Below the pieces are notes generated by a model, which was not told the origin of the DNA, ran no database searches, and was given only the letters and a program-made list of their open reading frames with translations. Below, piece after piece: positions 38,019 to 44,830 of a DNA stretch of 64,000 nucleotides (position 1 is its first letter; every line of letters begins with the position of its first letter). The stretch lies in the NCBI GenBank assembly GCA_017410525.1, contig JAFQQQ010000009.1, positions 1-64,000 of the forward strand, in the 5' to 3' direction. This DNA comes from Bacilli bacterium (lineage in GTDB: Bacteria > Bacillota_I > Bacilli_A > RF39 > UBA660). Position numbers and translations under genes: made by a program.

Positions 38019-39146
38019 CTATTTATTTTTCTTTAAATAGTTCTCTATTTCTTTAAATTCTGCTGTTTTTAAATCAGTTGAACCTAATTCTTCAAATAAT
38101 TTCTTTTGTTTTTTATCTATTTTATTTGGAATTACTACATTTATTATTACATACATATTACCTTTAGAACCACTATGTAGATCTTCTACACCTTTTCCTT
38201 TAAGTCTATGTTTATCTCCTGTATTAGCTCCTGGTTCAATAGTTAATTTAACATTTCCATATAATGTAGGTATTTCTTTTTTACAACCTAACACTGCTTC
38301 TGTAATAGTTAATGGAAGTTCTAAATAAATATCATTTCCATCTCTTTCAAATAATGGATGTTCTTTAACTCTAAACTCTAAATATAAATCTCCATTTTCT
38401 CCACCATTAGTTCCACTATCACCTTTTCCAGCAAGTCTTAAACGATTTCCAGTATCAACACCAGCAGGTATTTTTACTTCTAAATCTTTATTCTTTCTAA
38501 CACTTCCAGTACCTCTACAATGTGAACAAGTAGATTCATAAGTTTTTCCTTTACCTTTACAATCTGGACAAGTTGTACGGGTTGCGAAAGCGCCAAAAAG
38601 AGTATTTTGTTGCATAGTGACCATTCCACTACCATGGCAAGTTGAACAGGTTTTTTCTCCCTTACCACCTTTACCACGACATTCATCACATTCATCATAG
38701 AAATCAATATTTATTTCTTTTTTACATCCAAACACAGCTTCATCAAAAGTTAAATCTACTCTCATTAATCTATCAGAACCACGGCGCGCCCTAGTAGTTT
38801 GTCTACCTCCGCCAAATCCTCCAAAGTTAGAAAATCCACCGCCAAAAGATCCACCGAATAGTTCACTAAATATATCACTGAAATCAAAATCAGAAAAATC
38901 AAATCCAGCTCCACCATTCATTTGATCGAATGCTGCATGACCAAATTGATCATATTGTTTTCTCTTTTGTTCATCACTTAAAACTGCATAAGCTTCTTGA
39001 GCTTCCTTAAACTTTTCTGCAGCATCTGGTTCTTTAGATACATCTGGGTGATATTTCTTAGCTAATTTTCTAAAAGCACTTTTAATTTCTTTTTCAGAAG
39101 CACCTTTAGGTACCCCCAGCACCTCATAATAATCTCTTTTATTCAT
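38019..39146 (-). CDS. dnaJ: Chaperone protein DnaJ
   Basis: This 375-residue DnaJ has a J-domain (YHPDVS; HPD at about 32-34) and a Gly/Phe-rich linker. The zinc centre has four CxxCxGxG repeats ([32 protein letters not shown]), followed by substrate-binding barrels. It stimulates DnaK ATPase and delivers substrates. AGGTGAAGT precedes the ATG. It lies 7 bases after pepF, so the usual dnaK-dnaJ pair is interrupted by a peptidase gene in the same transcript. Confidence 0.98.
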
Positions 39147-40994: not shown

Positions 40995-43099
<2,105 letters not shown>

Positions 43100-43100
43100 A

Positions 43101-43700
43101 TTATTCACTTACTTTAACCATTGCTGGTCTTATAACTTTATCTTTATAGATGTAACCTTTTTGTAATACTTCAATTACCATACCAGGTTCTACACCATCT
43201 CTTTGTTCTGCCATAATAGCATTATGATATACAGGATCAAAAGGCTTATTAGCACCATCTATTTGTTTAACTTCAAAGTTCCCCATAATATTTTGCATAC
43301 TACAATAAATCATTTTAAATCCTTCTAAGAACTTAGACACTTCATCATCTAAATTATCATCATCAAGTTTTATAGCTCTTTCAAAGTTATCCATAATTGG
43401 AAGTATTTGTTTAATTAAATCTTCATTACAGAACTTTAGCATTCTAACTACTTCTTCATCTTTTCTTTTTCTATAGTTAATTAAATCTGCACGAGCAACT
43501 AAAACTTCTTGATCTTTCTTTTTTAATTCATCTTTTAATTCTTCGATTATTTCTTTATATTTATGTTTTTCTTTTTTCTTATCATGTTTTTTATCGTGTT
43601 CTCCACAATGACAAGTCTCTGTACACTTTACATCTTCGGTACAATTGCACTCACTACCGCAAGTACATTCTTCATTACAATAACACTTATTTTCTTCCAT
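43101..43700 (-). CDS. grpE: Nucleotide exchange factor GrpE with Cys-rich N-terminus
   Basis: This 199-residue GrpE has the long helix (KEIIEELKDELKKKDQEVLVARADLINYRKRKDEE), the four-helix dimer part, and the beta-wing end (GVEPGMVIEVLQKGYIYKDKVIRPAMVKV). It releases ADP from DnaK. The odd part is residues 1-46: nine Cys within positions 6-32, including CxC pairs at 6/8, 12/14, 18/20 and 30/32, followed by a His/Lys/Asp stretch (HDKKHDKKKEKHK). This resembles a small metallothionein. AAGAGGCAGTT precedes the ATG, and the extension is in frame with no better internal start. Confidence 0.96.
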   Translation of the reverse strand: MEENKCYCNEECTCGSECNCTEDVKCTETCHCGEHDKKHDKKKEKHKYKEIIEELKDELKKKDQEVLVARADLINYRKRKDEEVVRMLKFCNEDLIKQILPIMDNFERAIKLDDDNLDDEVSKFLEGFKMIYCSMQNIMGNFEVKQIDGANKPFDPVYHNAIMAEQRDGVEPGMVIEVLQKGYIYKDKVIRPAMVKVSE

Positions 43701-43713
43701 AACTGCCTCTTTT

Positions 43714-44703
43714 CTATCTACTATCTATATTATCTTTTATAAATTCTAGAAGTGTAATTACTCTTTCATATTCCATTCTCTTTGGTCCTATTAAAGCAAT
43801 TGTACCTTCTTCACCATTAATAGTGTATTTTGTTTTAATAACTGTTACATCATCATCAAAATCATTTTCACTACCTATATAAATATTTATACCGTTATCT
43901 TCTTCTTTAATATTTTTTACTATCTCTTTATCTTCAAACTTACTAATTATATCTCTAATTTTGTCGGTATCGTTAAACTCTGGTTGCATAAGTATATTCT
44001 TTCTACCATTAACTTTAACTGACTCATTTGTAAAATCGCTAAATGCGCTGTAAAATGCATTATATAATACCTCGTGTTGTTTTACATACTGAGCTATAAT
44101 TGGTTTTACTTGGTATTCTAATACTTCACTAACACTATCTATACTAGTTCCAATTATTAATTTATTTATTAAATCAACAGTTTGTTTAATCTCAACAGAA
44201 TCGACATCACCGGGTATGTATATAGATTTGTGTTCTACATGACCTTTATCAGTAACAACTATAGCCACTATATTATTTTTATCTATTGGAATAACTTCTA
44301 CTTTTTGAACTAAATTGTGGCTTGACTTTTTACCAAGCACAACTGTTGTATAGTGAGTAAGTTCTGATATAATTTCCATACTTTTTAAAATTATATCATT
44401 TACTACTAGTGATTTATTGTCAACTATTGTTTGAAGTTTTAACATATCTTCTCCATTAAGTTCTCTTGGAGTCATAATATTATCTACATAATATCTATAA
44501 CCTTTTTCGCTAGGAACTCTACCAGATGATATATGTGTTTTTTCTAATAATCCAACTTCTTCTAAATAATTCATTTCCGCTCTTATTGTCGCACTAGAGC
44601 ATTTCATTGAATCACATAATGTTTTACTACCTACTGGTCTAGCATTCTTTATATAATCTTCAACAATCAGTTTAAGTAATTCTTCTTGCCTTTTACTAAT
44701 CAC
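43714..44703 (-). CDS. hrcA: Heat-inducible transcription repressor HrcA
   Basis: This 329-residue repressor has a winged-helix N-terminus (RQEELLKLIVEDYIKNARPVGSKTLCDSMKCSSATIRAEMNYLEEVGLLEKTHISSGRVPSEKGYRYYVD) and the GAF-like HrcA core. It binds CIRCE inverted repeats and is kept active by GroEL. The start is a GTG with AGAGGTGATTAA upstream. It is first in the operon hrcA-grpE-orf-dnaK-pepF-dnaJ and represses itself. Confidence 0.97.
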   Translation of the reverse strand: MISKRQEELLKLIVEDYIKNARPVGSKTLCDSMKCSSATIRAEMNYLEEVGLLEKTHISSGRVPSEKGYRYYVDNIMTPRELNGEDMLKLQTIVDNKSLVVNDIILKSMEIISELTHYTTVVLGKKSSHNLVQKVEVIPIDKNNIVAIVVTDKGHVEHKSIYIPGDVDSVEIKQTVDLINKLIIGTSIDSVSEVLEYQVKPIIAQYVKQHEVLYNAFYSAFSDFTNESVKVNGRKNILMQPEFNDTDKIRDIISKFEDKEIVKNIKEEDNGINIYIGSENDFDDDVTVIKTKYTINGEEGTIALIGPKRMEYERVITLLEFIKDNIDSR

Positions 44704-44755: not shown

Positions 44756-44782
44756 TTAGCACTACACATTTCTAAGTGCTAA
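44756..44782 (-). promoter_or_regulatory. CIRCE operator 1 (HrcA site)
   Basis: TTAGCACT and AGTGCTAA are separated by 11 bases, the standard CIRCE geometry. The innermost C/G pair of the consensus is replaced by A/A. It lies between the -10 and hrcA, within the transcript leader. Confidence 0.93.
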
Positions 44783-44786
44783 AATA

Positions 44787-44815
44787 AGTATAGCACCTTA
44801 AATTAGCACTGTCAA
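44787..44815 (-). promoter_or_regulatory. Promoter of the hrcA-dnaK operon
   Basis: TTGACA and TATACT with 17-base spacing form a sigma-A promoter. The -35 lies inside CIRCE 2 and the -10 just before CIRCE 1. Confidence 0.9.
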
Positions 44816-44830
44816 TAGGCTGAGTGCTAA
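44803..44830 (-). promoter_or_regulatory. CIRCE operator 2 (HrcA site), one-base-longer spacer
   Basis: TTAGCACT and AGTGCTAA are both perfect but lie 12 bases apart rather than 11. The site covers the -35 box. Confidence 0.88.

Follow-up and report, generated by a model that had tools for sequence, protein, structure and literature searches.

A metallothionein-like Cys/His head on GrpE of a Bacilli bacterium, probably a metal store on a chaperone cofactor

We found that GrpE encoded in the 64,000-nucleotide stretch of DNA analysed here (the window) begins with a short head dense in cysteine and histidine; on balance, this head is probably a metallothionein-like metal store or buffer appended to a carrier that is itself likely to be under heat-shock control. 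Judged from sequence, the reading that fits best is a transplantable appendage for the buffering of metal, not a dedicated switch of DnaK. The original prediction had offered both functions. Metal storage is the reading we prefer; a response of DnaK nucleotide exchange to metal or redox state is less supported, since unrelated proteins carry the same kind of module, which also occurs in free peptides, and since the head was often gained or lost, observations that a metal store fits better than a GrpE-specific switch does. In the mechanism we propose, the head would bind a soft or borderline metal, most likely Cu(I) or Zn(II), with the thiolates of the CxC pairs and part of the histidines as ligands. 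GrpE would serve as a soluble carrier, probably heat-shock-controlled, and the two heads of the GrpE dimer would form the store or buffer with no need for contact with the exchange reaction. Modules in the family sit on different carriers or stand as separate peptides, with two of them in the genome under study. We infer in this way the metal binding, the identity of the metal, the buffering role, the heat-shock control and the stoichiometry of the dimer.

The protein matches the Pfam GrpE profile PF01025 over residues 36–199 (E = 1.2e-45; 155.6 bits versus a curated cut-off of 25.8). Cysteines occupy positions 6, 8, 12, 14, 18, 20, 26, 30 and 32, with CxC pairs at 6-8, 12-14, 18-20 and 30-32; the count of nine cysteines and four CxC pairs given by the original prediction for residues 6–32 was therefore exact by translation. 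The His/Lys/Asp-rich run that it placed after the Cys stretch and ahead of the GrpE helix was seen at residues 33–48; in the translation GEHDKKHDKKKEKHKYK comes after the Cys stretch. The earlier claim of a GrpE whose head resembles metallothioneins agrees with both the profile match and the CxC pattern. Such richness in Cys is not a matter of chance: among 333 ORFs of at least 80 aa in 326 kb of the same genome (1.1% Cys; the DeoC gene lies outside this sample) the GrpE head is the richest 30-aa stretch, with nine Cys, and the runner-up has six. In an AlphaFold2 model built with 28 sequences residues 1–36 have no structure and a helix begins at residue 37; pLDDT is <50 for most of residues 1–37, with block means of 43–47 over residues 1–40. 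For the rest the model predicts elements in the order expected for GrpE (helices 37–112 and 119–141, strands 144–148, 181–185 and 188–191), at a mean pLDDT of 69.8 and a pTM of 0.41 and with the beta domain partly below 50.

Table 1. Features of the grpE region in the window, and carriers of metallothionein-like modules elsewhere in the genome and the family
Feature	Position or genomes	Strand	Basis
dnaJ with CxxCxGxG zinc-finger domain	38022..39146	-	PF00684 match at 38505-38690
dnaK	40995..42800	-	Profile matches
ORF separating grpE from dnaK, about 100 aa	42797..43108	-	No Pfam or NCBIfam match
grpE, nucleotide exchange factor with Cys/His head, 199 aa	43101..43700	-	ATG start; PF01025
His/Lys/Asp-rich run, residues 33-48, linking Cys head to GrpE helix	43557..43604	-	Translation and model
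Cys-rich head, residues 6-32, nine Cys, four CxC	43605..43685	-	Translated sequence
hrcA, heat-shock repressor, preceding grpE	43714..44703	-	TIGR00331, 296.6 bits, cut-off 197.2
CIRCE-like operator (candidate HrcA site) upstream of hrcA, arms TTAGCACT / AGTGCTAA, standard spacing	44756..44782	.	Pattern search
Another CIRCE-like inverted repeat with the same arms, its spacer longer by one base	44803..44830	.	Read from sequence
DeoC aldolase with C-terminal Cys/His tail ECNCGCEHDHDCICGDDCHCKEGK	L271:2648-3361 (own genome G000, contig C9, outside the window)		Sequence read
Single-cluster ferredoxin, C-tail module	G020, G021, G033, G034, G049, G071, G083, G114		Pfam for G021 and G071; others by likeness
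HisRS, C-tail module	G013, G056, G069, G096, G100		Named by reading of sequence
Free peptide	G018, G066, G082, G102, G115		ORF reading
NrdD, module as linker to glutaredoxin-like domain	G057, G045		Pfam for G057; G045 by likeness
DUF1292, loop module	G039, G072		Pfam for G039; G072 by likeness
Desulfoferrodoxin with module	G074		Profile search
RelB-like protein with module	G041		Matches below curated cut-offs

The gene is the second in the order hrcA-grpE-orf-dnaK, followed by an ORF that reads as a putative M3-type peptidase and by dnaJ (Table 1). The CIRCE-like site upstream of hrcA has two mismatches to the CIRCE consensus, with a chance expectation of 0.01 on average; from this HrcA/CIRCE context grpE is probably under heat-shock control. 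The ORF between grpE and dnaK was present at only two of 80 related loci (L032 and L033). We rejected the idea that the head replaces DnaJ, since a DnaJ that has its zinc-finger domain is encoded in the same region.

The genome (1.04 Mb, 10 contigs; GTDB order RF39) has named relatives that are mostly MAGs of uncultured Bacilli, Mollicutes, Tenericutes and Erysipelotrichaceae, with one Candidatus Coprosoma, under the NCBI lineage Bacillota incertae sedis. GrpE was detected in 112 of the 117 family genomes; leaving out one copy at a contig edge (G033) we had 111 loci, 109 of them with a readable start. The number of head cysteines in these 109 is bimodal: none in 64, one to three in five and at least four in 40. 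The named set (the best 80 of 140) gave a similar picture, with at least four head Cys in 25 of 78 readable GrpE and none in 43. Conservation of the Cys pattern in relatives, on which the earlier claim depended, held at close range: all 15 loci with core identity of at least 80% (14 from the named set, the best 80 of 140, plus L117) have 5–15 head Cys. L117 appears to be the same genome as L041. At four loci of the named set (best 80 of 140) the head is rich in His and has no Cys, with 24 His at L026 and 13–14 at L061, L064 and L065. His-rich or His+Cys heads, with up to 24 His, were seen at L019, L026, L052, L061, L064, L065, L075 and L078–L080. Five family genomes with completeness >90% (G013, G085, G095, G135 and G138) gave no GrpE match; two of them, G013 and G135, have a metallothionein-like module elsewhere.

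Several features of the heads point to selection. In 63 unique Cys-rich heads, which share ancestry so that their motif counts are not independent, CxC was observed 214 times versus 110 ± 8 in shuffled sequences, CC 25 times versus 113 and CxxC 18 times versus 107; enrichment of CxC with depletion of CC and CxxC is as in metallothioneins. Among 246 pairs of aligned heads with core identity of 70–97%, Cys was retained in 78% of cases versus 48% for all other head residues (the pairs share sequences, and the aligner favours Cys on Cys, a score that we lowered), and the codon differs in 501 of the 1289 aligned pairs of head Cys. On a tree of 135 GrpE cores, with 137 columns and many open forks, 23 changes are needed to explain the Cys head, and well supported branches force 17 of them: the head was gained or lost at least 17 times.

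A search for CxC..CxC across the own genome produced 53 matches, mostly noise (15 in the control), and two metallothionein-like modules were accepted, the GrpE head and the tail of DeoC; at a third candidate place, C1:168524, there was no Cys-rich ORF. By a three-CxC pattern combined with ORF reading, non-GrpE modules are present in at least 25 of the 117 family genomes, on the carriers collected in Table 1 (G075 was judged among the matches listed for it). The pattern matched 82 of 117 genomes; 41 were read from the first pattern and the other 41 rescanned with a slightly stricter one, a match being counted as a module by judgement of each ORF. Out-of-frame CxC matches inside longer ORFs were taken as chance, 35 loci having been rechecked with no further module accepted, and at L279 a frame of 232 aa that contains a Cys-rich stretch was excluded as unlike the modules. 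An extra free peptide is present in G135, outside the 117 genomes. Free peptides of 45–60 aa (L306, L315, L317, L319, L357 and L358) have the motif CxCGCxEGKECTC in common with several GrpE heads, which looks as if one module was fused or released. With one 60-aa head as query (E ≤ 1e-4) we observed matches in 11 of 117 family genomes; in a search against 395 genomes of the class, family members included, five matched, all of them inside the family. At L324 and L328, NrdD and a C-terminal glutaredoxin-like domain are joined via a CxC linker. The GrpE head is present in three of 23 genomes with another carrier versus 37 of 86 others (Fisher p = 0.008); in the tree-paired test such complementarity was not upheld (median p 0.25).

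The non-GrpE modules are associated with scarcity of HMA (PF00403) proteins. These proteins were found in 60 of 117 family genomes, and the own genome had no PF00403 match. Any HMA was present in four of 25 genomes with a non-GrpE module versus 56 of 92 others (p = 8e-5; tree-paired median p 0.031). For copper-type HMA, defined by a frame length of 51–100 or 701–840 aa, a split chosen after looking at the data, the counts were one of 25 versus 50 of 92 (p = 2e-6; tree-paired median p 0.016); an HMA-based count would miss a copper ATPase that has no HMA. The length rule was checked on nine proteins: 5/5 long ones scored above the copper ATPase cut-off TIGR01511 (they also passed TIGR01512, with lower scores) and 4/4 short ones passed the cadmium/zinc-type TIGR01512 and failed TIGR01511, small CopZ-like frames being classed by length only. 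Genome size and completeness do not account for the association. The GrpE heads themselves had no link with any HMA (p = 0.43, 0.5 and 0.22 for heads with at least 4, 6 and 10 Cys); for heads with at least 10 Cys versus copper-type HMA we obtained p = 0.063, and heads of 4–9 Cys, as in the own genome, have no copper link. A 7-Cys GrpE head and a copper ATPase occur together in G048, a sister genome of the same genus. When non-GrpE modules were pooled with GrpE heads of at least 10 Cys, a threshold picked after looking, copper-type HMA was present in three of 36 genomes versus 48 of 81 (p = 1.6e-7; paired median 0.039). The scattering of Cys-rich modules across carriers suggests an unusual, dispersed way of holding metal. 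One could speculate further, and we do so tentatively, thinking it rather doubtful, that the family uses a distributed metallothionein: each genome would have one or two Cys/His modules that can be transplanted, on a housekeeping protein (GrpE, HisRS, ferredoxin, NrdD, DeoC and others) or free, replacing a mostly absent CopZ/CopA copper system.

A metal store is not the only function that could be imagined for the head. It might be a switch by which metal or redox state operates the DnaK cycle, with metal or a disulfide altering either the exchange activity or the reach of the tail toward the substrate-binding domain of DnaK. The GrpE of E. coli has a disordered tail that touches this domain and competes for the substrate site via its IIM motif, according to excerpts of PMC12915176, and this contact keeps a DnaK switch in consideration; mitochondrial relatives of GrpE are responsive to redox conditions, and redox-sensitive GrpEL2 and Mge1 exist (excerpts of PMC12987570). 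Given that the head studied here has no hydrophobic IIM-like motif, metal could have assumed that role. Still, we regard the switch as unlikely, because the same kind of module is carried by DeoC, HisRS, ferredoxin and others or stands free, because the head has no Cys in 64 of 109 family GrpE and was repeatedly gained or lost, and because the heads are depleted in CxxC, the usual redox spacing. Somewhat less likely again is a thiol reservoir, in which the clustered Cys of these anaerobes would be a store that is sacrificed or reacts with oxidants and metal binding would be incidental. The redox carriers among the module proteins (ferredoxin, desulfoferrodoxin, NrdD beside a glutaredoxin domain) speak in its favour; the relatives with His-rich heads free of Cys and the strict CxC spacing argue for metal rather than for thiol number alone, and the HMA association likewise concerns metal.

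It could also be that nothing was selected, and that a tolerant disordered tail drifted neutrally by repeat expansion. GrpE tails do vary widely in length and sequence, even within the genus; however, a bimodal Cys count, enrichment of CxC, retention of Cys above other tail residues in spite of codon changes, and modules of the same kind on other carriers make drift quite improbable. The possibility that the head is not translated at all, the start being wrong, was rejected and has in our view hardly any chance. The sequence GAGG, a ribosome-binding-like site, is located 5' of the grpE ATG, and among the first 100 codons there is a single other in-frame ATG, GTG or TTG, at codon 87, which falls within the conserved helix of GrpE; with no alternative start before it, any translation of GrpE includes the head. 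The same type of site precedes the chosen start in 34 of the 40 family GrpE with a Cys head (starts were partly picked by that site).

The metal-store reading has partial precedents. The protein shares with other GrpE (PF01025) the full-length domain, the hrcA-grpE-dnaK context and a disordered N-terminal tail, and differs from them in that its tail is rich in Cys/His with CxC pairs and has no hydrophobic DnaK-binding motif like the IIM of E. coli. The nearest tested precedent is HspA of Helicobacter pylori, a GroES whose His/Cys C-terminal tail binds nickel in vitro; deletion of this tail lowers cell nickel, from which a storage role was concluded (both in excerpts of PMC3856676). Each is a heat-shock co-chaperone with a Cys/His tail, metal binding being presumed for GrpE; our protein belongs to another co-chaperone family, has the tail at the opposite end and dominated by CxC, and shares the module with non-chaperones. 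Thus, it is not an HspA, which has a GroES domain and a C-terminal tail, though its head may work like one. Like the bacterial metallothioneins SmtA and MymT (excerpts of PMC7558416), the head has many Cys in a short stretch, with high Cys content and CxC motifs. A metallothionein is also a small separate protein, and here only the free 45–60-aa peptides of relatives are of that kind, the head being part of GrpE. Unlike SmtA and MymT, the modules are fused to carriers, the free peptides share a motif with some GrpE heads, and known families give no profile match: none of the Pfam and NCBIfam metallothionein models matches the GrpE head or the free peptide, the only PF00131 (metallothionein) match being a weak one (E = 0.16) to the DUF1292 insert of a relative. 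With Hpn and Hpn-2, the His-rich metal stores of Helicobacter described in excerpts of PMC3856676, the modules have in common a short sequence rich in metal ligands; they differ in being dominated by Cys and attached to housekeeping proteins. In open-licence literature no paper was found, by title or abstract, on GrpE tails that are rich in Cys or bind metal, or on metallothionein modules on housekeeping proteins, and excerpts of PMC7387436 contain nothing on metallothionein fusions.

If the preferred reading is true, a cofactor of a chaperone also serves to store metal, and metal storage in this little-studied bacterial group would be a module on varied housekeeping proteins, not a gene, and thus would be missed by annotation. 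This raises two questions: whether GrpE tails, which in E. coli are in contact with DnaK, can take on further duties, and how small genomes handle copper or zinc when the usual export proteins are absent. Outside the family, a Cys-rich GrpE head was observed in one of 27 readable proteins (from the best-scoring 28 of 58 matches, a sample rich in small complete genomes). This head, at L232 in another family, is an independent case, and its 12 Cys are arranged as six CC pairs in SDES-type repeats.
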